The translations under genes and the position numbers were made by a program. The notes under the pieces are model-generated. The model searched no databases. It was given only the letters and a program-made list of their open reading frames with translations, and was not told the DNA's origin. A DNA stretch of 64,000 nucleotides from Cyanosarcina radialis HA8281-LM2 (GTDB taxonomy: Bacteria > Cyanobacteriota > Cyanobacteriia > Cyanobacteriales > CCAP-1448), in contig JAHHHA010000021.1 of NCBI GenBank assembly GCA_019359615.1, positions 1 to 64,000 of the forward strand, read 5' to 3'. Positions 15,601-59,576 of the stretch are shown piece by piece. Numbering within the stretch: position 1 is the stretch's first letter; each line of letters opens with the position of its first letter.

Positions 15601-15668
15601 CCAGCTTCGACAAGCGACATCTCACGACTGGAGTTGAAAAAGCCAGAGGTATGGAGTTAGGAATTTTC

Positions 15669-15727
15669 TCCCCATCCCCCCATCCCCCCATCCCCCCATC
15701 TCCCCATCTCCCCATCTCCCCATCCCC
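15669..15727. repeat. tandem CCCCATCC/CCCCATCT octamers
   Basis: About seven imperfect 8-base units in the 704-bp space between gap2 and murC. Nothing else in that space (15270-15973) is recognisable apart from the possible GNAT remnant and AT-rich promoter DNA before murC. Confidence 0.85.
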
Positions 15728-15973
15728 TCATTTTTCCCGCGACAGTTTCCGAACAATCCCTCTCGGCTCGTGTATCTCAATATTAGGCAAGACCTTTGAG
15801 TAAACTCGACTAACTTCTAAGCAGCACGATCTCCCTGCTGCTGATAGTTCTTGATGACTATTTAAAGAAAAGCCTAAATATAAATTTTTTCTAATCTATA
15901 TCTTGAAAAAAGAATTCCTGATATGATAGCGCCATTTGAAGTCGCTTGTGATGTGGTGTGTAAGGAGTCAAAA

Positions 15974-17497
15974 ATGGATAATACAGTAGATCTTAGCGGT
16001 AAACCCTTTCATTTCATAGGCATTGGTGGCATTGGGATGTCAGCCCTAGCCCATATTGTAGCCAATCGCAATTTACCCGTCTCTGGTTCCGACATTCGCC
16101 CCAGCAACATCACCGAGCGCTTGCGATCGGCTGGAGTGCAGATTTTTATCGGCCAGCAAGCTACTAATTTGGACGCTTGGGGGCCTCTATCTGAATCGAC
16201 CTCACAAACTTTAGCGGTTGGGACCATAGCTAACGGTTCGGCTAGTAAATATTCGAGAACATCCAAAACTAGCAGTGTCGCCACCGCTCTTAAACCACCA
16301 GTCTCTTTACCACAAGTAATTTGCTCGACGGCGATTAATCCTGCTAACCCCGAACTGCGAGCGGCTTTAGAAAAGGGCTGTCCTGTTTTTCACCGCTCCG
16401 AACTCCTGGCAGCTTTAATTCGGGAATATCAAAGTATTGCTGTTGCTGGTACTCATGGCAAAACTACAACCAGCAGCATGGTTGGTTATCTGCTCCTCGA
16501 AGCCGGACTAGACCCAACTATTGTAGTTGGGGGAGAGGTAGAAGCTTGGGAAGGCAACGCCCGCGCTGGTAAGAGCGAATATTTGGTAGCTGAAGCCGAT
16601 GAATCTGATAAATCTTTAGTCAGGCTTGCGCCCAAAATCGGCGTGGTAACAAATATCGAACTGGATCATCCCGATCACTACGACAGTTTAGAAGAAGTAA
16701 TTAACATTTTTGAAACCTTTTCTCGGCAATGCGAGATTCTAGTGGGATGTATCGATTGCGAATTAGTCAGAACTCGCTTGCGACCGACTATTAGCTATAG
16801 CTTAGATCCAGAACTCGGTGCCGATTATAGCGTCGATCGCATCGCTTACAATCCTGATGGCACTACAGCGCGAGTATGGGAACGCGGAGAAATCTTAGGA
16901 GAGTTGGAATTAAAGTTGCTCGGCGAGCATAATCTGCAAAATGCCCTAGCTGCGGTGGCTATCGGTCGTTACTTGGGATTGGAATTCGAGACTATCGCTA
17001 AAGCCATGGCTACCTTTGCTGGCGCGAAACGCCGCTTTGAAGTTCGGGGTGAAGCTAACGGCATCCGCTTTATTGACGATTACGCCCACCATCCCAGCGA
17101 ATTGCTCGCTACCCTAGCCGCTGCCCGCTTGCAAGTCAAAGAATCGGGACGATTAGTAGCGATTTTCCAACCCCATCGTTACAGCCGGACCTTAACTTTC
17201 TTAGCGGAATTCGCTCGATCGTTTGTCGATGCCGATTTAGTGGTATTGACCGATATTTACAGTGCTGGCGAACCTAACTTGGGTCAAATCGACGGCGAAC
17301 GGTTAGCAGAACGGGTGAGTAATTATCATCCCCAAGTGAACTACCAAGAATCTATTCCTGCCGTGCGAGAGTTGCTCGGTCAGATTTTAAAGCCAGGTGA
17401 CTTGGCTTTATTTTTAGGAGCGGGCAATCTCAATCAGGTAATTCCTGAAGTAATGGCTCACCACCAAAAAGTTGACAAAACCCAGCTTGTCAAGTAA
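15974..17497 (+). CDS. murC: UDP-N-acetylmuramate--L-alanine ligase
   Basis: Adds L-Ala to UDP-MurNAc in peptidoglycan synthesis (cytoplasm). Features: HFIGIGGIGMSALA dinucleotide motif, ATP loop AGTHGKTTTSS, ADESDKS, NIELDHPDHY, GEHNLQNALAA, and DDYAHHPSE with the C-terminal domain. AAGGAG lies 8 bases before the ATG at 15974, so the upstream in-frame ATG at 15923 is not used. An extra Ser/Thr-rich stretch of about 40 residues (near residues 65-105) interrupts the N-terminal domain. First gene of a murC-murB-ebfC-phosphatase run. Confidence 0.96.
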   Translation: MDNTVDLSGKPFHFIGIGGIGMSALAHIVANRNLPVSGSDIRPSNITERLRSAGVQIFIGQQATNLDAWGPLSESTSQTLAVGTIANGSASKYSRTSKTSSVATALKPPVSLPQVICSTAINPANPELRAALEKGCPVFHRSELLAALIREYQSIAVAGTHGKTTTSSMVGYLLLEAGLDPTIVVGGEVEAWEGNARAGKSEYLVAEADESDKSLVRLAPKIGVVTNIELDHPDHYDSLEEVINIFETFSRQCEILVGCIDCELVRTRLRPTISYSLDPELGADYSVDRIAYNPDGTTARVWERGEILGELELKLLGEHNLQNALAAVAIGRYLGLEFETIAKAMATFAGAKRRFEVRGEANGIRFIDDYAHHPSELLATLAAARLQVKESGRLVAIFQPHRYSRTLTFLAEFARSFVDADLVVLTDIYSAGEPNLGQIDGERLAERVSNYHPQVNYQESIPAVRELLGQILKPGDLALFLGAGNLNQVIPEVMAHHQKVDKTQLVK

Positions 17498-17733
17498 AAT
17501 CCCATTGCTATTTTTAGCATTAAGATCGAAATTGGAGGGTAAAAATAATTTCAGGTCGGGGATCGGCCCGCGATCGAGTTAGATGAGGTAAAGAAAAACT
17601 AGAAATTTTGACAGGAAAAATAGATCGGGGAATTCTATACTTTAAGCAACTGAAATTCTCAAGGGAATAACAGTGGTGTGAATTTCTTGCTCTCAGCATC
17701 AATGAAGTAAGTATTTTTTGCGAGTGGTGTGCT

Positions 17734-18714
17734 ATGACTCTTTCTTTCGATCTTCCCAAACCCTTGAATGTCGCTGTTCCCCCAGCGCCAGTTACCCTTA
17801 AAGATTCCCCTTTATATCTGCCAGGAACTAGCTGCCTCATCAAGCATCAAGTCCCCTTAGCTAACTTCACCTCCTTTAAAGTGGGAGGCCCGGCAGAATG
17901 GTTTGTGGCTCCTAAAAATCTAGAAGAACTGCAAGCCAGTTTGAAGTGGGCTTACTCAGAAAAATTACCCGTTACCTCCCTCGGTGCTGGTTCTAACCTG
18001 TTAATTAGCGATCGCGGTTTGCCCGGTTTAGTCATCTCCACTCGCAACTTACGCTATATCCGCTGCGACCAAGAGACAGGTCAGCTTACGGCTAGCGCTG
18101 GGGAACCAATGGCAGCGATCGCTTGGGAAGCAGCGAAACGGGGTTGGGAAGGCTTAGAGTGGGCTATAGGCATTCCCGGTACGGTGGGAGGAGCCGTAGT
18201 CATGAATGCTGGGGCGCACAAACGCTGCACGGCTGAAATTTTAGTCAGCACCCAAATACTTTCATCTGATGGCACTCTAGAGAACTTTACCCCTGAAGAT
18301 TTAGGTTATAGCTATCGCACCTCGAATTTGCAAGGCAATTCCCGATTCGTAGTTCAGGCCACTTTCCAACTGCGACCGGGAGCCGATCCAGAAAAGGTCA
18401 AAGCCGCCACTAAAGAAGATCTAGCCCAACGGCACAGCACCCAGCCTTACGACTCTCCTAGCTGCGGCAGCGTCTTCCGCAATCCCCATCCCCACTATGC
18501 CGCCAGCTTGATCGAACAAACCGGACTCAAAGGCTATCGCATCGGTGGCGCTCAAGTAGCTTACAAGCACGCCAACTTTATCCTCAACAATGGTGGCGCT
18601 ACTGCCAGCGATATTTTCCAGCTAATCTGTTACGTGCAACAGCAAGTAGCAGAGCGTTGGTCCGTGCGTCTAGAAACAGAAGTCAAAATTTTAGGCGAGT
18701 TTCAACGGGCTTAA
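17734..18714 (+). CDS. murB: UDP-N-acetylenolpyruvoylglucosamine reductase
   Basis: FAD enzyme making UDP-MurNAc, the substrate of MurC. FAD-binding [13 protein letters not shown] and [10 protein letters not shown], catalytic region [16 protein letters not shown], and the Ser of SCGSVFRNP that donates the proton are all present. The first ~35 residues are a Pro-rich extension often seen in cyanobacterial MurB. It follows murC at 236 bp, so a separate promoter is possible. Confidence 0.96.
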
Positions 18715-23282: not shown

Positions 23283-23340
23283 TAGCAAATCAAAAGTCAA
23301 AAGTCATCGCTCATTCCTCGCCCTCTCGCCCTCTCGCCCC

Positions 23341-23420
23341 ATCTCCCCATCTCCCCATCTCCCCATCTCCCCATCTCCCCATCTCCCCATCTCCCCATCT
23401 CCCCATCTCCCCATCTCCCC
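23341..23420. repeat. (ATCTCCCC)10 tandem repeat
   Basis: Ten perfect 8-base units fill the space between the permease start region and the binding-protein stop codon, whose first base is the last base of the repeat. The longest such array in the window. Confidence 0.95.
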
Positions 23421-24727
23421 TAAGTTCCCAACAGCCGCCTAGTTTCAGCCGCCGCCGCCTTCATTGCTTTTTCGGGAGTCATTTGATTTGTGAGGGCAGC
23501 ACTGAGATATCGCTGAAGGATATCTGATACTTGGGCGTATTGAGCCAGCGGGGGACGCAAGACGGCACTATCGCCAACTTCTAGGAGTTGCGGATAATGA
23601 CTGTATTTAGCCACCACATCTGGATCGGTAAATAATTCTCGCCGACTGGGGACGTAGCCAGCTTGGAAAATAAATTGCTTCTGGGCTTCTTTGCTAGTAA
23701 AGAATTGAATGGCCTTCCAGGCTTCGGCGGGATGCTGGGAAGATTTAGCAATTCCTAAACCCCAACCGCCCAAGCAAGCACCGCTATTTTTACTAGGGGC
23801 GCGAACCATCGGTTTGATGCCAACTTTCCCTTTGATGGGCGAAGATTCTTCATTGGCTATCGGCCAAAGATACGGCCAACTGCGGATAAATGCAGCTTGA
23901 CCGCTTTTAAATAAATTGAGAGTTTCATCTTCCTGATAAGTGGTGACTCCCGCTGGAGAAACACCTTCTTTGATGGTGCTGCGGAGAAATTCGATCGCTT
24001 GCAGGGTTTCGGCTCGATCCAGACCGACTTCTAGCGTTTCAGGATTCACCCAAAAGCCGCCAAATCCTTCTAAAACTTCCACAAACATGGCAGATAGCCC
24101 TTCATATTGCTTGCCCTGCCAGAGATAGCCCAACGGAATCTTTTTGTCTTTTTGCAAGGCTTGGGAAATTTTGAGTAAATCGGCAAACGTTTCCGGTGGT
24201 TCGTATCCCGCTGCTGCCAGCAAGTCTTGTCGGTAGTAAAACACCCCCACATCAGAACGAACGGGGATGCGGTACAGCCTGCCCTCATAGCGGCCCGCTT
24301 CGATATCTTTAGGAGAAAATGCCTTTAATTCTTCTGGGGAAATTCGATCGCTCAGATCTAGCAACCACCCCGCTGCGGCAAATTTTGGGGCCCAAATTAC
24401 GTCCATATTCACCAGATCGTATGGCGAATCGCCCAAGATAAAAGCCGAGGTATACAGATCTTCGACTAAATTGGTGGCATTCGGTCCTTCAATGATATTG
24501 ATGCGAATGCCAGGATTTTGAGCTTCAAATTCTTTTACCATCCCTTGTTTCCAAGGTTGGGCATCAGGGGCAGTCATCAGCAAGTTAAGAGTGATGGGTT
24601 GCTGCGAGAGGACTGTCCAAGCGAACAAAACTATCCCCAACAACAGCGACAGAAATACCCCTAATTGCCAAAAAGTAAATTTTGGTAAGAATTTTGGCAG
24701 TTTTTTTAGTGGCTGTCGGTACAACAT
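23420..24727 (-). CDS. sugar ABC transporter substrate-binding protein
   Basis: A 435-residue family 1 (MalE-like) binding protein. A hydrophobic N-terminal segment (residues 18-42) without a lipobox Cys suggests it is membrane-anchored. The body shows LMTAPDAQPWKQGMVKEFE, the typical DLVNMDVIWAPKFAAAGWL and GGWGLGIAKSSQHPAEAWKAI motifs. With the two permeases it forms an importer for malto-oligosaccharides or trehalose-like sugars. First intact gene of the operon, preceded by a fragment of a second binding protein. Confidence 0.92.
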   Translation of the reverse strand: MLYRQPLKKLPKFLPKFTFWQLGVFLSLLLGIVLFAWTVLSQQPITLNLLMTAPDAQPWKQGMVKEFEAQNPGIRINIIEGPNATNLVEDLYTSAFILGDSPYDLVNMDVIWAPKFAAAGWLLDLSDRISPEELKAFSPKDIEAGRYEGRLYRIPVRSDVGVFYYRQDLLAAAGYEPPETFADLLKISQALQKDKKIPLGYLWQGKQYEGLSAMFVEVLEGFGGFWVNPETLEVGLDRAETLQAIEFLRSTIKEGVSPAGVTTYQEDETLNLFKSGQAAFIRSWPYLWPIANEESSPIKGKVGIKPMVRAPSKNSGACLGGWGLGIAKSSQHPAEAWKAIQFFTSKEAQKQFIFQAGYVPSRRELFTDPDVVAKYSHYPQLLEVGDSAVLRPPLAQYAQVSDILQRYLSAALTNQMTPEKAMKAAAAETRRLLGT

Positions 24728-46955: not shown

Positions 46956-49754
46956 ATGGGTAAACTTATGAAAACTCAAGTTTGGATGCAGGTAACGATC
47001 GCCATTGCTCTGAGTAGTAATTGCGCGGCTCAAGTCGTACCCGATGGCACGTTGCCAGCAGGAGAGCGATCGCAAGTCAGAGGAAATTTTGACTTTCAAA
47101 TCGATGGCGGTGCCGTTCGGGGAAGTAACTTATTTCACAGCTTTCAAAGATTTTCAATTCCCACGGGCAGCAGCGTTGTTTTTAACAATAGCTTGACGAT
47201 CGATAATATTATCAACCGCGTCACCGGAAGCAATATTTCTAATATTGACGGACTAATTCGCGCCAACGGCAATGCCAACGTATTTTTAATTAATCCTAAT
47301 GGAATTGTATTTGGTCAAAATGCCAGGTTGGATATCGGTGGCTCGTTTCTAGCTAGCACCGCAGATGGTGTAGCGTTCGGTAATGGATTTACCTTTAGCG
47401 CCACCGACCCGCAAGCACCGCCATTGCTGACAATCAACGTTCCTGTAGGGTTGCAATATGGCAGCAATCCGGGAGCGATCGAAGTGCGGGGAGCGAGTTT
47501 GCAAGTGCCTGACGGTCAAACCTTAACCATAGCAGGCGGCAAGGTAAATCTTGAGGGCGGGAAGTTAATAGCCCTCGGCGGTCGAGTGGAATTGCTTGGT
47601 ATTGGTTCTCCAGGCGAGGTCGGGCTGACACAACGGGGTCCAGAATGGCGGTTGACCGTGCCAGAGAGCTTGACCAGAGCCGATATAGCGATCGTGAATA
47701 ATGCGATCGTCGATGTTCGCGCTGGTGGAGGCGGGAGCATTGGTATTACCGCTCGCAACTTCACAGGCAGGGGATTCGGGACGCAGGTGCGATCGGGCAT
47801 AGCACCAGGTTTCGGAACTGCGGGCGCAAGAGCCGGAGATATTGACATCAACGCCACCGAAGCCGTTAACCTTGATGAAATGTTTCTCTCCAATCGAGTT
47901 GAATCGGGCGGCACGGGCAATGCTGGCAACATTAACATCGCTACAGGCTCTCTCTCCCTCACTAACGGGGGGGCAATAAGTGCCAGCACGTTTGGTCGAG
48001 GAGATGGGGGGAATATTACCATTACGGCCAGAGATACAGTTTCCTTTGATGGCGAGAGCAGCGATGGATTTTCTAGTGGGGCTTTTAGCGCGATCGCTCA
48101 AGAGGGTATTGGTCGGGGAGGGAACATCAGGATCGACACAGGCTCTCTCTTCCTCACTAATGGAGCGCAAGTAACTACCATCACCTTGGACCGAGGAGAT
48201 GGGGGAAATATCAACATCAACACAGGCTCTCTCTCCCTCACTAACGGGGCACAAGTGGATACCAGCACGTTCGGTCGAGGAGATGGGGGAAAGATCGACA
48301 TTACGGCCAGAGATACAGTTTCTTTTGATGGCACTTTTAGCGGTGCTATTAGCGAGGTGGGGCCTGAAGCCATCGGTCGGGGAGGGGACATCAGCATCAA
48401 CACAGGCTCTCTCTTCCTCACTAATGGAGCGCAAGTAACTACCATCACCTTGGGCCGAGGAGATGCAGGAAATATCGACATTACAGCTAGAGATACAGTC
48501 TCCTTTGATGGCAGCAATGAAGTTTTTAGCGGTGCTGTTAGCGTCACGTTCAGTATTTTTGGCACGGCCACTGGTCGAGGAGGCGATATCGAGATCGACG
48601 CAGGCTCTCTCTTCCTCACTAACGGGGGACGAGTGGATGCCAGGAGCTTAAGTCGAGGAGATGCAGGGAATATTACCATTACGGCCAGAGATACAGTCTC
48701 CTTTGATGGCGTGGGCAGCAATGGATTTGCTAGCGGTGCTTTTAGCAACACGGACAACGATGTTAGCAGCACGATCGTTGGTCGAGGAGGCGATATCACC
48801 ATTAACACAGGCTCCCTCTACCTCACTAACGGGGCGCGAGTGGATACCAGCACGTCTGGTCGAGGATTTGCGGGGAATATCAAAATTACGGCAACAGATG
48901 CAGTGTTCTTTGATGGCACGAGCAGCGATGGACTTCCTAGTGGTGCTTTTAGCTCGGTGGCATCTAGAACCGTCGGTCAAGGCGGGAAGATTACGGTGAA
49001 TACCGGACTGTTTTCCATTACAAACGGGGCGGAATTATCTACTTCTTCTGAAGGTCAAGGGAATGCAGGTAACATCGAAGCGAACGCTCGCCAACTTCGT
49101 CTGGATATGAAGGGATCGATTCAAGCGCAAACCGCATCAGGTCAAGGTGGCAACATTACCCTGAACGTGCGGGATTATTTACTCCTTCGACGGGGTAGCT
49201 TCATTTCTACCACGGCTGGGACGGCTCAGTCTGGGGGCGACGGGGGCAACATCACCTTTAATGGCAACTTCATCGTGGCAGTTCCAGAGGAGAATAGCGA
49301 CATTAGTGCCAATGCCTTTACTGGCCAAGGCGGTCGAGTGGAGATTAACGCCCAAGGGATTTTTGGCATTCAGTCTCGTCCCGAACCGACTCGCTTCAGC
49401 GACATTACTGCTAGTTCGGAGTTTGGCATCAGCGGCACAGTGACGATCGATACGCCCGATCTCGATCCGAGCCGGGGACTGGAAAGCCTACCGACCGGGT
49501 TGGTCGATCCCGATTCCCTAATTGCTAATAGCTGCCTTATCCGTAGCAGTCGTCAGGGCAGCTTTACCATTGCAGGCTCAGGGGGTTTAGCAGCCCAACC
49601 GGACGATCTGGGTAATTCATCGTTTCCCACCTACGAGTTGGTTCCAGATGCCAATACTTCAAACGCCCAGCCATCGAGTGCAGAGATCGTCGAACCCGAT
49701 GGCATTTATCGCCTCCCCAATGGAGAACTGGTTTTAGGTCGATCGTGTCATTAA
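46956..49754 (+). CDS. filamentous-haemagglutinin-type exoprotein (two-partner secretion)
   Basis: 932 residues. Signal peptide (to about residue 25), then the TPS domain: QVVPDGTLPAGERSQVRG, LFHSFQRFSIPTGSSVVF, IDGLIRANGNANVFLINPNG and IVFGQNARLDIGGSF. Next come at least six beta-helix modules with the DNA-level repeat GGCTCTCTCTTCCTCACTAA (47946-48825), which encodes TGSLFLTNGAQV. It ends with a short C-terminal region containing LIANSCLIRSSRQGSF. Secreted across the outer membrane by an FhaC/ShlB-type partner, which is not in this window. Confidence 0.92.
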   Translation: MGKLMKTQVWMQVTIAIALSSNCAAQVVPDGTLPAGERSQVRGNFDFQIDGGAVRGSNLFHSFQRFSIPTGSSVVFNNSLTIDNIINRVTGSNISNIDGLIRANGNANVFLINPNGIVFGQNARLDIGGSFLASTADGVAFGNGFTFSATDPQAPPLLTINVPVGLQYGSNPGAIEVRGASLQVPDGQTLTIAGGKVNLEGGKLIALGGRVELLGIGSPGEVGLTQRGPEWRLTVPESLTRADIAIVNNAIVDVRAGGGGSIGITARNFTGRGFGTQVRSGIAPGFGTAGARAGDIDINATEAVNLDEMFLSNRVESGGTGNAGNINIATGSLSLTNGGAISASTFGRGDGGNITITARDTVSFDGESSDGFSSGAFSAIAQEGIGRGGNIRIDTGSLFLTNGAQVTTITLDRGDGGNININTGSLSLTNGAQVDTSTFGRGDGGKIDITARDTVSFDGTFSGAISEVGPEAIGRGGDISINTGSLFLTNGAQVTTITLGRGDAGNIDITARDTVSFDGSNEVFSGAVSVTFSIFGTATGRGGDIEIDAGSLFLTNGGRVDARSLSRGDAGNITITARDTVSFDGVGSNGFASGAFSNTDNDVSSTIVGRGGDITINTGSLYLTNGARVDTSTSGRGFAGNIKITATDAVFFDGTSSDGLPSGAFSSVASRTVGQGGKITVNTGLFSITNGAELSTSSEGQGNAGNIEANARQLRLDMKGSIQAQTASGQGGNITLNVRDYLLLRRGSFISTTAGTAQSGGDGGNITFNGNFIVAVPEENSDISANAFTGQGGRVEINAQGIFGIQSRPEPTRFSDITASSEFGISGTVTIDTPDLDPSRGLESLPTGLVDPDSLIANSCLIRSSRQGSFTIAGSGGLAAQPDDLGNSSFPTYELVPDANTSNAQPSSAEIVEPDGIYRLPNGELVLGRSCH

Positions 49755-49786: not shown

Positions 49787-49865
49787 TTTCCAAACTTGGA
49801 AAGCGATTTTCCGTAGATGTCGATGTATATAAAGGGCGATCGCTCTAATTTAGAAGTATCGAACT
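49787..49865 (+). promoter_or_regulatory. palindromic upstream module, copy A
   Basis: TTTCCAA-AC-TTGGAAA (49787-49802) followed by GCGATTTTCCGTAGATGTCG and, after a variable stretch, TCTAATTTAGAAGTATCGAA. Ends 28 bp before the ATG of the 136-residue protein. Nearly identical over 79 bp to copies at 50448 and 57268. Confidence 0.8.
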
Positions 49866-49892
49866 TTACAACATGATTATGGAGGCGATAAA

Positions 49893-50303
49893 ATGAGTAC
49901 ATTTCACTCAGCAATTGAATTAATTAACAACTCCAACGTAGTGTTAACGCTAGATCCCGTTCATAGCAGCGGCATCGACTTCAAGTTGTGGCCGAAAACT
50001 TTATCCAATGTGCCAGGACAGAACCATTACAAATTTAAGCAGGGATTCAATTTTCAAATCAAATTTAAGGCTTTGTATTATGCAGCTAATAATGCTTCAA
50101 TTAGCTTGAATTACTATGCAGATGCTTTGCAAACTTTTAGCAGCAGCGCCACAACTAATCCACCAGGGGCTTTTTCGGGGACGTACTGGTCTACTGGCAG
50201 CAATAACTATAGTCCCTTATTTGATATCAAGGGTCTGGCCATTCCACCAAATGTCTCCTCAGCAGTAGCCGATAGTGCCATGCTTGAAGAGCTTGCGAAG
50301 TAG
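49893..50303 (+). CDS. uncharacterised 136-residue protein
   Basis: A beta-rich soluble protein without signal peptide (MSTFHSAIELINNSNVVLTL). GGAGGCG lies before the ATG. Its promoter region carries module copy A and it ends in a strong terminator, so it is a monocistronic, well-controlled gene. The segment NHYKFKQGFNFQIKFKALYY is rich in aromatic/Lys alternation typical of a beta-sandwich. Family not recognised. Confidence 0.8.
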   Translation: MSTFHSAIELINNSNVVLTLDPVHSSGIDFKLWPKTLSNVPGQNHYKFKQGFNFQIKFKALYYAANNASISLNYYADALQTFSSSATTNPPGAFSGTYWSTGSNNYSPLFDIKGLAIPPNVSSAVADSAMLEELAK

Positions 50304-50366
50304 TAGTCTTAACTGTTTTCAGATGTGTAAAAAATAGGTGAGTCCAAGCCGGACAAAAGCCCTAGT

Positions 50367-50406
50367 AGTCAGATTTTGCCATTAATGGCAAAATCTGACT
50401 TTTTTT
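50367..50406 (+). terminator. strong rho-independent terminator
   Basis: A perfect 34-bp palindrome (AGTCAGATTTTGCCATT / AATGGCAAAATCTGACT) followed by TTTTTTGTTT, 64 bp after the gene end. Confidence 0.92.
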
Positions 50407-50447
50407 GTTTGAACAGTAGGAGTCGATCGCTTCATCGACGCGATCGC

Positions 50448-50526
50448 TTTCCAAACTTGGAAAGCGATTTTCCATTTATGACGATGTTTCTTGGGGGCGC
50501 TCCCTCTAATTTAGAAGTATGGAAGA
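50448..50526 (+). promoter_or_regulatory. palindromic upstream module, copy B
   Basis: TTTCCAAACTTGGAAAGCGA followed by TTTTCCATTTATGACGATG and TCTAATTTAGAAGTATGGAA. Unlike A and C it has no intact gene right after it: the 237 bp to 50763 hold only a 45-codon frame without a start codon (RDTIEVSLRGQGITFVGLKL), possibly the remains of the gene it controlled. The next gene starts at 50764. Confidence 0.7.
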
Positions 50527-50763
50527 GAAGCCAACAAGCTGAATCTTCCAGCCAATAGAGACACGATTGAAGTCTCCCTGCGCGGACAAGGCATCACTTT
50601 TGTTGGCTTGAAACTACAACGAAAGTTAATGCGGCGATGTCACTTTTGTCGAACTTAGATCGCGACGTTTTGTAGATGTTTTGTCGAACTGGACTGCTTA
50701 CTATGAAAGCATCTTGGTTCGTCGCTTTCACAATCTTACTTGATTTTTGATTTAGGACTGCAT

Positions 50764-51570
50764 ATGAATTTCCCACAATTAATCGCCCTCGATCGAAGCC
50801 TTGAAAAAACCAATTCGATCCTCTCGAATGACAATTTAGTGCCGACAATTTCCTATCGGGCGCTGGAAAAAACTGCTCGCACCTTTGAGGCGATCGTCCA
50901 ATTCTACTTTCCGCTGCACGGTCTTTCTGAAACCGACTTTCTGCGGTTGATGCCCGCTCTCACCTTCGCTGAAGGGGCGATTTATCAGATCGATGAAGAG
51001 TACGAAGCCCATGTCGGCGATCCCAATTTTGTCTCGCAGCACTTGCCAGTTTTACGGAACGTCTTAACCAAGCTGAATCTGTTCGATGAAGCATTAGAGA
51101 CAGAACTGCAACGAGGATTGACCTATTACCGTCTGGAACAACAACTTTGCTCTGGTGCTGCTGTCACCGAGGAAGAGATCGCTCTGTCCAATCGCTTCAA
51201 GTGTTTTGATTGCCGTTTTCTCAACCGCTTGTTGTTCAAGTTAACCGATCGACCCTATGACGAAGAATTGCTCGATATTGTCTGGCTGGGGGAACAGATT
51301 GCCGAAGTGGAAGACGACCTCATGCAGTATGAGGATGATGTCCAACGCAATGTCTACAATACCTATCGGATGTTCGTGCGCCTCTACGGGTTAGAAGCTC
51401 CCCAACACCTCCTGCGCTACCTGGAAGAACTGCACGCCGAGGCCGAACGTTTGATGGCAATGCTGGCACAGAACAACCCCGACTTGGCAGAAACGTTATT
51501 CGAGCTTTGGAGTACATATCGCGGCTCCAATGAAATGCCTGCGATTCCCGCACCGATTTTAGAAGGCTAA
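50764..51570 (+). CDS. all-helical protein with terpene-synthase-like acidic motifs
   Basis: A 268-residue soluble helical protein. EVEDDLMQYEDDVQRNVYNT resembles the second Asp-rich motif of class I prenyl synthases (D-x2-x-D...R..Y), and YQIDEEYEAHVGD could be the first. Sequence is otherwise unlike known phytoene or prenyl synthases, so catalytic function is uncertain; it may be a helical protein of other function. TAGGA precedes the ATG; a TTG eight codons earlier is less likely. It lies 12 bp before a membrane-protein gene and upstream of dxs and ispH, which is why a terpenoid role is considered. Confidence 0.55.
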   Translation: MNFPQLIALDRSLEKTNSILSNDNLVPTISYRALEKTARTFEAIVQFYFPLHGLSETDFLRLMPALTFAEGAIYQIDEEYEAHVGDPNFVSQHLPVLRNVLTKLNLFDEALETELQRGLTYYRLEQQLCSGAAVTEEEIALSNRFKCFDCRFLNRLLFKLTDRPYDEELLDIVWLGEQIAEVEDDLMQYEDDVQRNVYNTYRMFVRLYGLEAPQHLLRYLEELHAEAERLMAMLAQNNPDLAETLFELWSTYRGSNEMPAIPAPILEG

Positions 51571-51582
51571 GGAGAGGAAGCA

Positions 51583-52206
51583 ATGATTGCTCTAGTCTTG
51601 CTGAGTGGATTTCTGGGTTTTGCGGTGAAGTATATTGACGAAGTATTTGACGAGGGACGTTTCTCGAAATCGACTGCTTATCTGCTAGGAGCGATCGCGA
51701 TTCCCGTCAGCACCTATCTGTTCGTCACCGACTTCTATTGGCGGCAACTGCTGCTGGCGATCTTTCTGGGTGTCTTATTTGCTTGCAAGGTTGATAATCG
51801 GGCTTTTCAAATATTTTTTGCTGCCACTTTCGGATTGGGATTGGCTTACCATCTGACAATTGCGCCTCTCACCATCAATTGGTTATTCGTCGGTACGGCA
51901 GCGCTTGCGGGAGTGCTAGACGAACTGGGGAACGATACGGTCGATCGCTACCAGTGCAACTGTTTCGTCACTAGCTTTTTTCAGCATCGATGGGCTTTGA
52001 AACTGCTGGTGTTGGGGTTCGGTTGGGCTAACTTATTACCGATCGGTCACGTGTTGGCTTTTCTAGTGTTTGATGGCGCTTACGAAACTGTAGGTTCGGC
52101 ATCAGAACTGTCAATTCAATTCGCAATTGACAATCCGCAATTGGCAATTAATCCCGCACCTGTGGTCAATTCAATTCGCAATTCGCAATTCACAATTGGC
52201 AATTAA
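51583..52206 (+). CDS. uncharacterised membrane protein, co-transcribed
   Basis: 207 residues with five to six hydrophobic segments and two possible metal/active-site stretches (KYIDEVFDEGRFSK and VLDELGNDTVDRYQ). GAGAGG precedes the ATG. The last ~31 residues (SIQFAIDNPQLAINPAP and following) are translated from AATTCGCAATT-type repeats (52110-52203), so the original C-terminus has been replaced or extended. Always read with the helical gene 12 bp upstream. Family not recognised. Confidence 0.7.
   Translation: MIALVLLSGFLGFAVKYIDEVFDEGRFSKSTAYLLGAIAIPVSTYLFVTDFYWRQLLLAIFLGVLFACKVDNRAFQIFFAATFGLGLAYHLTIAPLTINWLFVGTAALAGVLDELGNDTVDRYQCNCFVTSFFQHRWALKLLVLGFGWANLLPIGHVLAFLVFDGAYETVGSASELSIQFAIDNPQLAINPAPVVNSIRNSQFTIGN
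52110..52203. repeat. AATTCGC/AATTGGC short repeats forming the C-terminus of a gene
   Basis: Seven or more degenerate AATTCGC / AATTGGC units; they encode the last ~31 residues of the membrane protein. Confidence 0.8.
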
Positions 52207-52280
52207 CTTTGTAACTGCGATCGTCGCCAGACGATCGGCTTACCCAATCTGTCAACCACTCCTTTTCGCAATTCGTAAAA

Positions 52281-52346
52281 CGGTGCGTTACGACGGACAG
52301 TTGAATTTAACTCAAAGCAAAGTTTATCGCCGTCTAACGCACCCTA
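52281..52346. repeat. GGTGCGTTACGACGG inverted repeat element
   Basis: CGGTGCGTTACGACGG (52281) and CCGTCTAACGCACC (52330) are imperfect inverse complements around 33 bp. The rest of 52207-52509 also contains the GCCTGCGGCATGGCTACGC repeat (52388-52430) and no gene. Confidence 0.6.
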
Positions 52347-52509
52347 CCTAATTTATTAAATAAAGCTTGACAGTCCCTTAGGGTGCGTATAGCCTGCGGC
52401 ATGGCTACGCTAAAGCGCTGCCGTTAGCACCGCCACCACCATCAAAGGTATAGCTGCATAAGCATAAGTCTCATCCGTCTTAACTTCAGCAATTACCAGG
52501 TATTTAAAT

Positions 52510-54447
52510 ATGCAATTAAGTCAAATTAACCACCCTAACCAGTTACGCCCACTCTCTATTTCCGAACTTCAAGACCTGGCAGGTCAAATTCGGCAGAAGC
52601 ATTTAGAAACAGTTGCCACCAATGGCGGTCATCTCGGCCCCGGTTTGGGCGTGGTGGAACTGACCCTGGCACTCTATTACACCCTCGACCTCGATCGCGA
52701 TAAAGTCACTTGGGATGTGGGCCATCAAGCCTATCCTCACAAGCTGCTCACCGGGCGCTACCACCAATTTCACACTTTGCGGCAAAAGGGCGGAATTGCT
52801 GGCTACCTCAAACGGGGCGAAAGTCGGTTCGATGCCTTTGGGGCCGGACACGCTTCCACCAGTATCTCGGCCGCCTTGGGCATGGCTTTAGCTAGAGATC
52901 TCAAAGGCGAAAACTTCAAAGTAGCAGCCGCGATCGGAGATGGATCGCTCACTGGCGGGATGGCTTTAGAAGCGATTAATCATGCTGGCAGCTTGCCGAA
53001 AACTAACTTGCTGGTAGTTCTCAACGATAACGAGATGTCAATTTCCCCCAATGTCGGGGCGCTGTCTCAACATCTCAACCAGCTTCGATTTAAAACTCCG
53101 GTACAGTCGATCGAACGCGCCCTAGAAGACCAATTACAACACCTGCCACCCTTTGGCGAAGTCATGTCTACAGCCTGGAGCCGGATCGAGAAAGGAGTGA
53201 AGCGACTGGCTATCCCCAAGGTGGGAGCGGTGTTTGAGGAACTAGGTTTTACTTACATCGGGCCGGTAGACGGACACAATATTACCGAATTAATTGCCGC
53301 TTTCGAGCAAGCGCATCAACTGACGGGGCCGGTGCTGGTACACGTAGCCACCGTCAAGGGCAAAGGATACGAACTGGCCGAGCGCGAGCGAGTCGGCTAT
53401 CACGCTCAATCTGCCTTCAATTTGGCTACTGGCAAAGCAATTCCTGCCAGCAAACCCCAGCCTCCCAGCTATTCTAAGGTGTTTGCCACTACCCTGACCG
53501 CCTTAGCCGTTAGCAACCCCAAAGCGATCGCGATTACCGCTGCCATGCCCACGGGTACGGGACTCGATATCCTGCAAAAACAACTGCCCCAGCAATGTAT
53601 CGATGTCGGAATTGCCGAGCAACACGCCGTCACTCTGGCAGCAGGGTTAGCCTGCGAGGGGATGCGCCCCGTGGTGGCGATCTACTCCACTTTCTTACAA
53701 CGGGCGTTCGATCAAATCCTGCACGATGTTTGCCTGCAAAAGCTTCCCGTGTTCTTCTGCCTCGATAGAGCCGGGGTGGTGGGCAGCGACGGCCCCACCC
53801 ATCAAGGGTTATACGACATTGCCTATTTGCGGTGCATTCCCAATCTGGTACTGATGGCTCCCAAAGATGAAGCCGAACTTCAGCGGATGATAGTTACGGG
53901 ACTAGCATATACCGACGGCCCGATCGCAGTGCGATATCCGCGCGGCAACGGTTACGGCGTACCGTTGATGGATTCCGGCTGGGAACCGTTGCCCATCGGC
54001 AAAGGCGAAATTCTCCGTCATGGAGAGGATGTATTGTTAGTGGCTTACGGTTCGATGGTCTATTCGGCGATGCAAGCTGCGGCTCATCTTAAGGAATATA
54101 GAATCTCCGCTACGGTGGTCAATGCCCGTTTCGTCAAGCCGCTGGACGCTGACTTAATCGTGCCTTTAGCCCAGAAATTCGGCCGGGTATTCACCCTAGA
54201 GGAAGGGTGTTTGATGGGCGGCTTTGGTTCTGCCGTCGCCGAATCCCTGTTAGATCGTCAAGTTAACGTTCCTGTAATTCGGCTGGGCGTACCCGACAAG
54301 TTAGTAGAACACGCCACTCCAGAAGAATCTCTGCTCGAACTAGGGCTGACCAGTTCCCAGATTGGCGATCGCATCCTGGCAGAATTGCGACTTTCACAAC
54401 CAGGAACGCCGATCTTCCGCCACCGCTCTAAAGTCGAAGCTGCTTGA
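52510..54447 (+). CDS. dxs: 1-deoxy-D-xylulose-5-phosphate synthase
   Basis: 645 residues; condenses pyruvate and glyceraldehyde 3-phosphate, using thiamine pyrophosphate, as the first step of the MEP isoprenoid pathway. [46 protein letters not shown] and N-D-N-E-M-S cofactor loop, GPVDGHN, and [15 protein letters not shown] with the catalytic His are all intact. The segment around residues 190-225 ([20 protein letters not shown]) diverges from the usual cyanobacterial enzyme, so this may be a second copy. Confidence 0.95.
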
Positions 54448-54469
54448 GCCGGCCGACCTCACCCCCAGC

Positions 54470-54490
54470 CCCTCTCCTTGCAGGAGAGGG
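54470..54490. repeat. palindromic 'gagaggg' repeat, copy 6
   Basis: CCCTCTCCTTGCAGGAGAGGG, 23 bp after the dxs stop codon; may double as terminator between dxs and ispH. Confidence 0.75.
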
Positions 54491-54535
54491 GAGAACGCAA
54501 GAATCTTTGCTAATTCCAAAAGCGCGGATTTTCCT

Positions 54536-54567
54536 TGCGAATTGTCAATTGCGAATTGCGAATTGTT
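54536..54567. repeat. GCGAATT repeat abutting the ispH start codon
   Basis: GCGAATTGTCAATTGCGAATTGCGAATTGTT directly precedes the ATG, replacing the usual ribosome site region. Confidence 0.85.
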
Positions 54568-55770
54568 ATGGATAACAAAGTTTTAAATCGATCGCTTCAT
54601 CAGTCCGATCGCTATTATCGCCACGGATTCGGAGGCTCGGCCGATCTCAAGCAACAGTTGCGCTTTCAGTATGACAGCGATTTGATGCCACAGATTCGAG
54701 AACGAGGTTACGTGCTGCAACAAGGCGAGGTAACGATTCGGTTGGCCGAAGCGATGGGGTTTTGCTGGGGAGTAGAGCGGGCGATTGCCTTAGCCTATGA
54801 AACCCGACAGCAGTTTCCCAGTGCTTGCATCTGGATTACGAACGAAATTATTCACAATCCGAGGGTGAATCAGTCCCTCAAAGACAGGCAGATTAGATTT
54901 ATTCCTGTAGACTCACGGGGAGAAAAAGACTTTTCCGTTATGAGTGCGGATGATGTAGTTATCTTGCCTGCATTTGGGGCCACGGTTGAAGAAATGCAAC
55001 TCCTACACCAGAAAGGCTGCATCATCGCCGATACCACCTGCCCGTGGGTAGCGAAAGTGTGGAATCGAGTCGAGAAGCACCAACAAGGCAACTTCACCTC
55101 GATCGTTCACGGCAAATACAACCACGAAGAAACCCTGGCTACTCGCTCCCATGCCGAGAAGTACCTGGTGCTGCTAAATCTCTCGGAAGCCGAGTACGTC
55201 TGCAATTACATCTTACGAGGTGGCAACCGCGACGCTTTCCTCAGTAAGTTTGCCTTAGCTTGTTCTCCCGGATTCGATCCCGATACCGATCTGGTAAAAA
55301 TTGGGATTGCCAATCAAACAACTATGCTCAAGGGCGAAACCGAACAGATCGGCAAGCTGTTCGAGCGAACGCTGATGCGGAAGTATGGTTTTAGCGACAT
55401 CGATCGCCATTTCCTCAGTTTTAACACCATCTGCAATGCCACCCAGGAACGTCAGGATGCCATGTTGAAATTGATGGCGGAAAAGCTGGATCTGGTGCTG
55501 GTAGTCGGCGGCTTTAACTCCTCGAATACCGCCCATTTGTTGGAAATTGCCTGCCAGCGGGGGATTCCTGCCTATCACATCGACAGTGCCGAGCGGATCG
55601 GGGTAGGTAACTGGATTCAGCACCAGCCATTGCATCAAGCTTTGACAGTGACTGAAGATTGGTTGCCCCCAGGTCCCGTTGCTGTAGGTATCACTTCTGG
55701 AGCATCGACCCCAGACAATGCGGTGGCGGCAGCGATCGAGAAGATTTTGCATCTCAAAAATTGCTTCTAA
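54568..55770 (+). CDS. ispH: 4-hydroxy-3-methylbut-2-enyl diphosphate reductase
   Basis: 400 residues; last step of the MEP pathway, making IPP and DMAPP with a 4Fe-4S cluster. Cluster Cys in [15 protein letters not shown] and [12 protein letters not shown], substrate-binding His in [10 protein letters not shown] and GKYNHEET, and the conserved [12 protein letters not shown] and ITSGASTPD are present. This is the long cyanobacterial/plant type. Start at ATG 54568; the repeat upstream leaves no Shine-Dalgarno. Having dxs and ispH adjacent is unusual. Confidence 0.95.
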
Positions 55771-55898
55771 TTATCAAATTCGGTCGATCGCATCTAATTA
55801 AACGGTGGGGCAGGGCGGGTTTGATTTGGCAGTTAACGGTGTGCCTTAAACCTGGCTGGCTAAACCCGCCCCTACAACTGACTCCTCACCTCCTGTAC

Positions 55899-55918
55899 GG
55901 GCGCAATGCTTTGCGCCC
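55899..55918. repeat. palindrome GGGCGCAA-TGCT-TTGCGCCC
   Basis: Near-copy of the 35753 palindrome, followed at 55925-55983 by the second copy of the GTTGGCGCAGCCTGCGCTCG repeat from 11791. Confidence 0.75.
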
Positions 55919-55987
55919 CTACCTCTGAACTTCTGAACTTCTGTTGGCGCAGCCTGCGCTCGGCGCATACTCCTGAACTCCTGCCAT

Positions 55988-57226
55988 ATGACCTCCAAAT
56001 CTCGCGATGCCATCTCTCCCTTCGAGTTGACTGACTTTCGACTGCTGTGGCTGGGACAAAGCTTGCTGCTTTGGGCGATGCAATTTTGGCTGGTAGCGAT
56101 CGCTTGGTTGGTTCTCCAACAAACAGGCTCCGGGATTGCCATCGGTACGGTATTGATGTCAGCCGCTATCCCACGGGCGTTGTTTATGCTGGTTGGGGGG
56201 GCGCTGGGCGATCGCTTTCCCCCCCAACGTCTGGCTGCTGGTTCGGCGATCGTTAATACCCTTATCGTCGCGATCGTTGCCCTCGCGCTCTCAGCCGACG
56301 CGCTTCAACTGATACATCTAATTGTCGGTGCGGCTTTGTTTGGCTTGGCCGATGCTTTCCTCTATCCGGCGCTGCTATCGATCTTGCCTCGATTAGTGGA
56401 GCCAAAACTGTTAGGTCAAGCGAATGCCTTCCTCCAAGGGGGAGAACAAATTACTAATATCGTGGGGCCTGCGACCGCTGGCTTTGCCATTCATGCCTTT
56501 GGTTTGGCAAGTGCTTTCCAATTCGATGCCTTCCTGTTTGCGATTGGTAGTTTCTGTATTTGGTGGCTGCGACCCGATCGAGTTACGGTTACTAAGCTAG
56601 CAAGTCCGGGTGGTTCTAGTTTAGCTAGCGCCATCGGGGAAGCTCTGCGTTACGTCTGGAATCGTGCGGCTATTCGCGTCTGTTTGCTGATGGTGGCGAT
56701 GTTGAATTTTGCCACGATGGGGCCTGCGATCGTCGGACTGGCCAAACTGGTAGAACTGCGGTTGGGTGGAGATGCTGCTACCTACGGATATCTTCAAGCA
56801 GCTTACGGACTGGGAGCATTGGTCAGTGCGATTGCTGCCTGCCGCAGTCGGTCGATCGCTAATCCAATCCCTCTCTTCGTAGGATTGGCGTGGGGTTTGG
56901 GAGTTGGAATGATAGCCCTGGGATTTACTTGGCACGGTTGGGTAGCTGGCAGCCTGCTGGCAGCCATGGGACTGGGAGGTGGTTTTGTGACGGTCATTGG
57001 CGTAACTTGGATGCAGCAACAAACCCCACCAGAGATGCAGGGACGAATGATGAGTTTGCTGTTGTTCGCTGTCGTCGCGCTCGATCCGTTTTCCCAGGCA
57101 ATTTCCGGCTTGTTGATGGAAATAAACCTGGTGTTGTTATTTGTGGCGGCTGGCTTGGTGATGATTTTGACAGGTGCGATCGTCTATTTCAGTTCGGCTG
57201 TTCGAGAACCGATCGAGTACAAGTAA
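55988..57226 (+). CDS. MFS transporter (DHA/enterobactin-exporter-like, MFS_3)
   Basis: 412 residues, twelve predicted membrane helices. The N-terminal FRLLWLGQSLLLWAMQFWLVAIAWL and the GxxxDRFPPQRLA loop (GALGDRFPPQRLAAG) between helices 2 and 3 are typical of MFS_3 exporters, which pump out siderophores, drugs or metabolites. It closes the dxs-ispH run in the same direction. No regulator adjacent. Confidence 0.88.
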   Translation: MTSKSRDAISPFELTDFRLLWLGQSLLLWAMQFWLVAIAWLVLQQTGSGIAIGTVLMSAAIPRALFMLVGGALGDRFPPQRLAAGSAIVNTLIVAIVALALSADALQLIHLIVGAALFGLADAFLYPALLSILPRLVEPKLLGQANAFLQGGEQITNIVGPATAGFAIHAFGLASAFQFDAFLFAIGSFCIWWLRPDRVTVTKLASPGGSSLASAIGEALRYVWNRAAIRVCLLMVAMLNFATMGPAIVGLAKLVELRLGGDAATYGYLQAAYGLGALVSAIAACRSRSIANPIPLFVGLAWGLGVGMIALGFTWHGWVAGSLLAAMGLGGGFVTVIGVTWMQQQTPPEMQGRMMSLLLFAVVALDPFSQAISGLLMEINLVLLFVAAGLVMILTGAIVYFSSAVREPIEYK

Positions 57227-57267
57227 AAAATCAGCCAGACCTGGAAACGCTTATTTATCGCGATCGC

Positions 57268-57346
57268 TTTCCAAACTTGGAAAGCGATTTTCCGTATATG
57301 TCGATGTATATCCGGGACAATCTTTCTAATATAAAAGTATCGAACA
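57268..57346 (+). promoter_or_regulatory. palindromic upstream module, copy C
   Basis: TTTCCAAACTTGGAAAGCGA, TTTTCCGTATATGTCGATG and TCTAATATAAAAGTATCGAA, 43 bp before the DUF4278 ATG. Heads the block that contains the sigma-factor gene. Confidence 0.8.
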
Positions 57347-57388: not shown

Positions 57389-57658
57389 ATGAAACTTACC
57401 TATCGCGGCAACTCCTATGAAAATTGCGATCGCATTAATTCTGACTCTGACTCTACAGATAAGCTTCCAATTAAACTCATTTACCGAGGTCACGCCTACT
57501 GCTACAATCGACGCTCTGTAGCAGCATCTCAAGAGATTGAGACAGACGGAACAAATGTAACTCTAATCTACCGAGGAAACACCTACGAGTCTAAAATCTC
57601 CACCTTTGAACCGACTCGAATTCCCTTGGCACTCAACTGGCGTTGGCATTTTAACTAG
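57389..57658 (+). CDS. DUF4278 repeat protein
   Basis: 89 residues with three copies of the motif K-L-T/I-Y-R-G-x-x-Y (LTYRGNSYE, LIYRGHAY, LIYRGNTYE) that defines DUF4278, a family of small cyanobacterial proteins of unknown role. ACGAGGA precedes the ATG. Directly under module copy C. Confidence 0.85.
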   Translation: MKLTYRGNSYENCDRINSDSDSTDKLPIKLIYRGHAYCYNRRSVAASQEIETDGTNVTLIYRGNTYESKISTFEPTRIPLALNWRWHFN

Positions 57659-57963: not shown

Positions 57964-58239
57964 ATGACTTACTTAATTGATATCATTATTACACCGCTCT
58001 GTCAACATCTCGAATCAGTAGAAATCAATAACTACATAACAGCCAGGATTGTATGTCAAATCATCCCCGCAAGCTGTCCTTTTAAGCGAGAAATCAAGCT
58101 GTTCGATCGTACTATTGTTCGCATTCCTGCTCTATGTCAACTGAATCCTTTTTACGAGCAAATAATTGGTTTGCGCTGCAAATCTCTGGAGTATTTAACC
58201 AACAAATGCAGCAAACCTCTAACAAAATATAGCAAATAA
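57964..58239 (+). CDS. Mo-dependent nitrogenase C-terminal domain protein
   Basis: 91 residues. The central block (ARIVCQIIPASCPFKREIKL, then IPALCQLNPFYEQIIGLRCK) matches the Mo-nitro_C family, found as a stand-alone small protein throughout cyanobacteria, including non-diazotrophs, so nitrogen fixation is not implied. First gene of a three-gene run with the sigma factor. Confidence 0.8.
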   Translation: MTYLIDIIITPLCQHLESVEINNYITARIVCQIIPASCPFKREIKLFDRTIVRIPALCQLNPFYEQIIGLRCKSLEYLTNKCSKPLTKYSK

Positions 58240-58526: not shown

Positions 58527-59576
58527 ATGCAAGCAACTTTCAACCAAACAAACAATATTTGCCGGACAGAATCCCCAAAGAAGTCAGAGGAGCAGGTACT
58601 ATTGAGGCAGATTGCTGGAGGCGATCGCACCGCTTTTTGGCAGCTATGGCAACAATATCAAAATTATCTTTACCGTCGCTGCTGGACTTGGATGACAGGC
58701 AATTATACAGATGCCCAAGAAGCACTCAGTCGAGCGATGCTGAAAGCCTGGAATAAATTGCCAAAGTACGCAGAAAAAATTACTAATCTCAAAGCTTGGC
58801 TAACTCGCATGACTCATAACCTCTGTGTCGATATTCATCGAGAACGCCAAAGAGGAGCAAAGAGTATTGAGAGCATTGACACCGTGGCAGATAGAGAAGA
58901 TGAAGCAGTAATTTCTGGCTGCGATTCTCCTGAATCTACCATCCTTCGCCGCGAGATGAAAGCTTATATCCGTCAAGCCGTTAATGCGTTACCTGGGAGA
59001 TTGCGTCAGCCTTTTATTCTCAGATTCGATCGAGAAATGTCGTATCTAGAAGCATTCCAAAGGTATGCAATCGAAATTGATAGAAACCCATTTCTAAGCC
59101 TTTCAAATACTTCGATCGCTAAACGGTCTTTTAAGTCAAAAGACTACAACGTTTTGATCGATCAAGTCGTGCAGTTGTACGAAGGTTTTGAATCTGTAGA
59201 CCTAGACGAAATTAAAGAGTCTATTGCCAATATGGGCAAGTCCCTACTTTCGCACCAAACAACCGAAGAGTCAATGAATTTATTCGCCCAATCCACTATA
59301 GGTATCAGCGATCCAGGCAATCCCCAGTTCTTAATATACTACACTACGCTGCGGATGAAAAACACCAAAAATGGAAAGTCTGAAGTGTTGGAACAAGAAT
59401 ATGAAGTGAATCGAACTTCGTATTTCGTATTGCCAGATTTAATTAAAGCTCATGCTCCTACTTTAGCCAAACTACAGAAAACAACAGTTGACGACTGGGC
59501 GACCAATTCTACCTCTCCAGAAGTAGAAGATGCGAAGCTTTGCTTCGAGGTGAAACAATACAGTATGTCCCGTTAA
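58527..59576 (+). CDS. sigma-70-family factor with unusual C-terminal domain
   Basis: 349 residues. Residues about 22-120 are sigma region 2 (LLRQIAGGDRTAFWQLWQQY, AWLTRMTHNLCVDIHRERQR). Region 4 begins as usual (AVNALPGRLRQPFILRFDRE) but after MSYLEAF, where the helix-turn-helix for the -35 element should follow, the sequence departs. It runs 170 residues into unrelated text (GISDPGNPQFLIYYTTLRMK, RTSYFVLPDLIKAHAPTLAK). Normal length in this group is about 190-200. It is either a fusion with a new sensory or partner domain or a recombination product that has lost promoter recognition. Third gene of the block under module copy C. Confidence 0.75.
   Translation: MQATFNQTNNICRTESPKKSEEQVLLRQIAGGDRTAFWQLWQQYQNYLYRRCWTWMTGNYTDAQEALSRAMLKAWNKLPKYAEKITNLKAWLTRMTHNLCVDIHRERQRGAKSIESIDTVADREDEAVISGCDSPESTILRREMKAYIRQAVNALPGRLRQPFILRFDREMSYLEAFQRYAIEIDRNPFLSLSNTSIAKRSFKSKDYNVLIDQVVQLYEGFESVDLDEIKESIANMGKSLLSHQTTEESMNLFAQSTIGISDPGNPQFLIYYTTLRMKNTKNGKSEVLEQEYEVNRTSYFVLPDLIKAHAPTLAKLQKTTVDDWATNSTSPEVEDAKLCFEVKQYSMSR

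Follow-up and report, generated by a model that had tools for sequence, protein, structure and literature searches.

A window of 64,000 nucleotides (nt) of Cyanosarcina radialis HA8281-LM2 (contig JAHHHA010000021.1, positions 1 to 64,000, the whole stretch analysed) carries three copies of a short module that, judged by its sequence, looks like a promoter cassette: a complete, activator-dependent σ70-type promoter. The same design recurs in 8 of the 387 other genomes searched. It consists of an operator, the inverted repeat TTTCCAA-N2-TTGGAAA, followed two helical turns on by a TTTTCC half-site and then by a σ70-type −10 element, TAnnnT. We think it likely that the cassettes are activator-dependent promoters, with the best candidate for their activator being a NarL/FixJ response regulator whose gene lies with that of a CHASE2 histidine kinase on contig C53 of the same genome (G000; 6.5 Mb, 65 contigs).

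The original prediction of three near-identical modules at 49787, 50448 and 57268 (c1, c2 and c3) was borne out by a search of the window, in which a 20-mer matched exactly (0 mismatches) at each position. With up to 3 mismatches allowed, there were five matches, namely the three copies and the reverse strands of two, compared with 0.04 in shuffles. Pairwise identity is 86.5% over 89 bp for c1 and c3, 83.7% over 92 bp for c1 and c2, and 80.8% over 99 bp for c2 and c3; the likeness is limited to about 90 bp, and the flanks compared share no further similarity. The palindrome, described as perfect, is so in its 7-bp arms but not at the central AC, which is non-symmetric. Across the source genome, a search at E ≤ 0.001 returned only c1, c2 and c3, apart from partial reverse-strand matches of two of them, and the genome-wide palindrome check that had been proposed gave the same three copies and no other exact TTTCCAA-N2-TTGGAAA. 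Three one-mismatch palindromes lie elsewhere in this genome, none of them matched by the sequence model R1 described below. The elements of the modules, all on the + strand, are:

49787..49802, +, c1 operator, 7-2-7 inverted repeat TTTCCAA-N2-TTGGAAA, centre 63.5 bp 5′ of the predicted start
49807..49812, +, c1 third half-site TTTTCC, 21 bp after the first
49846..49851, +, c1 predicted −10 hexamer TAATTT, predicted +1 at about 49858
50448..50463, +, c2 operator, exact match
50468..50473, +, c2 third half-site
50507..50512, +, c2 predicted −10 hexamer TAATTT, predicted +1 at about 50519
57268..57283, +, c3 operator, exact match
57288..57293, +, c3 third half-site
57327..57332, +, c3 predicted −10 hexamer TAATAT, predicted +1 at about 57339

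The −10 element keeps a fixed distance from the operator. TAnnnT stands 55.5–57.5 bp from the palindrome centre in all 16 modules, and in 13 of 13 after removal of the near-duplicates c2, G117 and G186a (c1 and c3, though related, were both retained in this count). Within 20.5 to 111.5 bp, 3-bp windows clear of this position contained TAnnnT in 0–5 of the 16 modules, and 20,000 positions drawn at random from these loci gave a background of 5.3%. As a control, 29 loci with an exact palindrome (L053–L081) were read both ways; TAnnnT fell at the module distance in 8 of 58 orientations, four of which are modules, and in 4 of 54 once these were removed. The sites had been picked on the repeat and third half-site, and TAnnnT had no part in the choice except that R1 reaches over the −10; the three modules first flagged by R1 (G241a, G377b and G352) all have the exact palindrome as well. 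G352, once suspected of a 10-bp deletion in its spacing, has TAnnnT at 57.5 bp too. If transcription starts seven bases beyond the hexamer, the centre of the operator would lie at −62.5 to −64.5. Thus, the fixed TAnnnT spacing points to a σ70-type promoter with an upstream-bound activator and not to an extracytoplasmic function (ECF) promoter.

The first copy outside the source genome was found in G017 (E = 1.3e-5) among 60 genomes searched; a partial match of 26 bp in G049 from the same search was left out. R1 was built from c1–c3 and the G017 copy, and so trained on G000 and G017 only. Over 388 genomes of the order it matched 9 at E ≤ 0.001, seeds included. Among its matches, G241, G377 and G352 showed the palindrome and third half-site, as did G252 for the left half, while right-half matches in G376, G196 and G337 were left out of the counts. 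A second model, R2, was trained on the 16 sites, from all 9 of the genomes that it counts, and matched 9 of 388 genomes at E ≤ 1e-5. Weaker R2 matches, up to 0.01, occur in 33 more genomes and were left out (33 of 42, including G264 at 4.5e-5). The palindrome arms are nearly invariant in the 16 sites, though the sites were picked on this repeat. The exact palindrome by itself occurs at 68 places in 57 of the 388 genomes, the source genome's three included, and its backwards control at 37 places in 23 genomes; 20 regions of the 68 were examined, picked by centre sequence, and most of the palindromes examined lack the rest of the module. Unrelated genomes are represented among the matches both of R1 and of the exact palindrome combined with the third half-site. 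A sense open reading frame (ORF) lies 3′ of 15 of the 16 modules in the 9 genomes, its first start codon about 106–337 nt on by mechanical ORF calls. Two further sites were not counted: a reverse-strand palindrome at G252b (TAnnnT at 58.5 bp) and a weak G186 site between the regulator and kinase genes, with no TAnnnT at the module distance. A gapped pattern, composed after the G017 copy had been seen, gave 3 matches in GTDB contigs; one is the G017 contig, and those in Flavobacterium and Clostridia were taken as chance.

G083 and G159 contain a diverged operator, TTTCTnAACTTGGnAAGTAAGTTAGC, in two repeats each (L129:4576 and 5206; L130:5126 and 5619; minus strands), with TAnnnT at 57.5 bp in 4 of 4 copies. 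These repeats lie 3′ of genes for a regulator (about 50% identical), a kinase and, by eye, a DUF928-like protein; the G083 repeats are 90% alike over 290 bp, and only ORFs of 5–9 codons, again by eye, follow the elements.

A response regulator of 221–223 amino acids (aa) and a CHASE2 kinase were seen near the modules of G377, G186 and G241. In the source genome, both are on contig C53, where the regulator (223 aa, 17413–18057) is 72% identical to that of G377 and the pair lies near genes for a DUF928 protein and a LanM lanthipeptide synthetase. The latter scores above the NCBIfam cut-off (G000:C53:8001-18443, L106) and is preceded by a 166-aa protein with no Pfam match. Regulator homologs above 60% identity are found in 7 of the 388 genomes (G377, G257, G117, G252, G000, G241 and G186) and form one clade with 100/100 support. 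All seven have the putative recognition helix SDRT[VI]RNYWIR, whereas none of 17 sampled homologs outside the clade has WIR, and the position of the N is H in 13, N in 3 and I in 1 of them. A regulator profile compared with the PDB retrieved NarL/FixJ regulators over about 190 residues (4zmr, 4hye, DevR, EvgA, DesR and NarL). Receiver residues D17, D18, D63 and K124 are invariant in 8 aligned members; Response_reg was detected in all 8 (best 9e-10), with the G000 protein just under the cut-off, and GerE in 7 of 8 (best 3.2e-6). The aligned kinases have CHASE2 in 6 of 6, HATPase_c in 4 of 6 and an invariant His435, and their ATPase domain is nearest, weakly, to those of VraS, NarQ and NarX. With receiver, helix-turn-helix and adjacent kinase all present, the protein is, by these sequence features, a NarL/FixJ response regulator.

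A plasmid search for the regulator gave 5 records, all below 60% identity, of which three (L187–L189, from Calothrix and Aulosira) were examined. Each encodes a TPR protein, two an annotated haemagglutinin and two a kinase aligned over CHASE2, with a hypothetical protein in the kinase's place in the third. The 7-2-7 repeat with third half-site is absent from these plasmids at the strictness of the motif-blind scan described below.

Module and regulator occur together. All 7 regulator-clade genomes are among the 9 with a strong module (R2, E ≤ 1e-5), giving a hypergeometric p of 1.4e-13 overall and 4e-7 without the seed and discovery genomes, although R2 was trained on those sites. The regulator was seen first beside modules in G377, G186 and G241, then in G000, and then in G257, G117 and G252. 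The exact palindrome, which involves no training, is present in 6 of the 7 (p = 5e-5, discovery genomes included). The two are also partly linked, 4 of the 7 clade genomes having a module no more than 4 kb from the regulator gene: 179 nt 5′ of it in G377, 464 nt 5′ in G241 with a 64-aa ORF between, about 1 kb 5′ in G257, where the module heads the intervening Nif11 precursor gene, and 3.9 kb away in G186. The linked modules of G241 and G257 were picked up when regulator loci were scanned with a matrix whose training had not included them. A motif-blind scan of 19 loci for a 7-2-7 repeat with third half-site recovered 9 modules and 7 other matches; it missed the G257 module, whose arms differ.

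Several observations weigh against the C53 regulator as the activator. Its own GerE (E = 0.004) and receiver scores lie under the Pfam cut-offs, and Sigma70_r4_2 is also a weak match in 6 of the 8 aligned members. In G000, G117 and G252, the available sequence around the regulator gene, cut short by contig ends in G000 and G252, shows no strong module. The G352 module (L095:6021; E = 1.1e-5 untrained, 2e-9 with a model trained on it; TAnnnT at 57.5 bp) is in a genome with no regulator homolog at E ≤ 1e-5, and the G017 homolog is only 47% identical and outside the clade. As to the counts, two of the seven clade genomes, G117 and G252, belong to the same genus; some genomes served for both discovery and testing; and each of the 9 genomes counted by R2 had contributed to its training sites. 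Once the seed and discovery genomes are set aside, 2 of 3 regulator genomes have the exact palindrome, which needs no training, and this palindrome alone is only about twice as frequent as its backwards control.

The same promoter-operator module could instead answer to another regulator, NarL-type or unrelated, with the CHASE2 system as a passenger; this would account for G352 and for the three of seven regulator genomes that have no strong module nearby. It accords less well with the module in 7 of 7 clade genomes, with its place 0.2–1 kb 5′ of the regulator gene in G377, G241 and G257, or with the 7-2-7 geometry, which suits the NarL/FixJ family. We consider a different regulator unlikely, if worth keeping in view.

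If the CHASE2-linked regulator is the activator, a NarL/FixJ dimer would bind TTTCCAA-N2-TTGGAAA centred near −63.5, and a further protomer may bind the TTTTCC half-site (about −51 to −46) on the same helix face. The bound regulator would then bring the housekeeping polymerase to a promoter with a TAnnnT −10 but no good −35; the position of the operator suggests activation, not repression. The C53 protein of 223 aa, paired with the CHASE2 histidine kinase, is the most probable regulator, and the system may control itself in some genomes. The three window copies would derive from duplication of the promoter cassette alone, placing up to three units under one signal, which suggests that promoters duplicate without their genes.

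Downstream of the modules in the other genomes are:

G377b, 116-aa double-glycine protein (leader by eye) and a C39 ABC exporter
G257, Nif11 precursor of a ribosomally synthesised and post-translationally modified peptide (RiPP)
G186b, G252b and G252c, RTX proteins
G117, a start near-identical to that of G252c
G252a, LamG protein
G017, an orphan and a PatG-like protease
G352, M28 peptidase
G377a, the regulator itself
G241b, 64-aa ORF, then the regulator
G186a, 101-aa ORF, with a two-partner-secretion protein further on
G241a, nothing clear

The theme of exported products is strong in these genomes and unproven in the source genome; in related species, the CHASE2/NarL-type pair lies near exported-peptide and surface-protein genes. 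A dedicated CHASE2-kinase/NarL-type system may run a surface and peptide-export programme (RiPP and double-glycine peptides, RTX proteins and two-partner-secretion adhesins) in scattered cyanobacteria, spread by copying of the roughly 90-bp cassette, a proposal that we put forward tentatively and rate below even chances. If it is true, peptide clusters could be induced through one identifiable signal. The regulon would tie the CHASE2 system to RiPP and RTX proteins, and it supplies, for a CHASE2 sensor kinase, a specific candidate regulator together with an operator sequence and a predicted transcription start.

The genes around the copies in the window are:

49893..50303, +, 136-aa ORF 3′ of c1, orphan
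50764..51570, +, 268-aa ORF, the next long ORF after c2, no family
57389..57658, +, DUF4278 gene 3′ of c3, Pfam E = 4e-15
58527..59576, +, ECF-type sigma factor gene, on this evidence outside the system

As originally predicted, two copies precede small genes, c1 the 136-aa ORF at 106 nt and c3 the DUF4278 gene at 121 nt, both counted from the operator. The 136-aa protein has no homologs among 280 other genomes and no Pfam match up to E = 10, and its single-sequence structure model (mean predicted local distance difference test score 37.6) was too poor for use. No convincing gene lies close to c2, the ATG of the 268-aa ORF being 316 nt beyond its operator; the roughly 245 nt after c2 (50520–50764), likewise with no convincing gene, could represent an untranslated RNA, a long leader or a decayed copy. 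Upstream of c1, a two-partner-secretion protein with internal repeats (46956–49754) ends 33 nt before the module, and proteins like it occur close to modules in G186, identified by Pfam, and in G377, judged by eye. The sigma factor has a long C-terminal part, and 5′ of its gene, 57964–58239 encodes a 91-aa stand-alone protein of the Mo-dependent nitrogenase C-terminus family (Pfam E = 1e-31). Elsewhere in the window, dxs and ispH (NCBIfam equivalogs) adjoin on the same strand at 52510–55770, and arrays of 8-bp units, TCTCCCCA and variants, occupy 15651–15762 and 23302–23453.

The sigma factor encoded at 58527 figured in the original prediction, whose promoter with a palindromic operator in an uncharacterised regulon has held up but whose assignment of the module to an ECF promoter read by the local sigma factor has not. 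TTGGAAA, about 17 nt and TCGATG do resemble an ECF arrangement in c1 and c3 (ACGATG in c2), and the sigma gene lies about 1.2 kb after c3. However, TCGATG is exact at the fixed distance in c1 and c3 only and is lost from the G252, G186, G257, G117 and G377a copies, while the TAnnnT position is fixed in 16 of 16. Conservation of the left palindrome arm, which would not serve a sigma factor, almost equals that of the right, albeit in sites picked on the palindrome. Nor does c3 clearly head a sigma block, as had been proposed, the sigma gene being three ORFs and a roughly 305-nt gap further on. In an author-selected sample of 79 genomes, sigma homologs (E ≤ 1e-10) occur in 39, at up to 9 places in one (G117) and mostly as alignments of the N-terminal half; they are present in 6 of 9 module genomes versus 33 of 70 others (p = 0.31) and were not found in module genomes G377, G352 and G241. 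The −10 position and co-occurrence speak against an ECF promoter for the 58527 sigma factor, to which we leave very little probability.

A plain dispersed repeat or mobile element with no regulatory role is more improbable still. The copies arose by duplication, to judge from their being closer in sequence than an operator needs, and the two G186 copies are likewise close, at 90% over 177 bp. Against such a repeat, there are three copies only in the genome, the architecture is conserved in eight other genomes, and copies unrelated to gene starts, which the original prediction would have taken as the mark of a dispersed repeat, are not the pattern found, with 15 of 16 ahead of a sense ORF. Just as remote is an RNA element or terminator whose hairpin ends the upstream gene. 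In its favour, c2 and c3 form a 12-bp stem with T after it, and c2 scored terminator-like. Against it, the four copies folded gave z-scores of −0.5 to −3.1, the other two of these lack the 12-bp stem, a separate terminator-like hairpin already precedes c2, and the window has no Rfam match above the gathering score.

Returning to the modules as promoters of a CHASE2-linked NarL/FixJ regulator, the open-access literature searched, with most subscription papers outside its scope, yielded in the portions seen no description of the operator or system, nor of target sites of CHASE2 kinases in cyanobacteria; the sequence TTTCCAAACTTGGAAA did not occur in the open-access papers searched. The nearest parallel is NarX/NarL of Escherichia coli, which also has a 7-2-7 repeat upstream of the core promoter, sometimes with extra single 7-base half-sites, and in which NarL activates from −44.5, −67.5 and −77.5 (PMC7419079). 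Both systems have a NarL/FixJ-type regulator, and the kinase ATPase domain here is weakly similar to those of NarX and NarQ. They differ in the sensor domain, CHASE2 here as opposed to a nitrate sensor, in their unrelated target genes, and in the single rigid position of the module operator near −63.5. The NarL recognition sequence is TACYYMT, compared with TTTCCAA in the module. EbfG/PteB of Synechococcus elongatus PCC 7942 resembles the G377b locus in combining double-glycine small proteins with a C39 exporter, whereas neither the module operator nor a CHASE2 system is described in the portions of that work consulted. Bacteriocin regulons under dedicated two-component control are also comparable, with a kinase and regulator linked to secreted-peptide genes and possible autoregulation; the best known of these use LytTR-type regulators and direct repeats, in contrast to the NarL-type regulator and inverted repeats found here.

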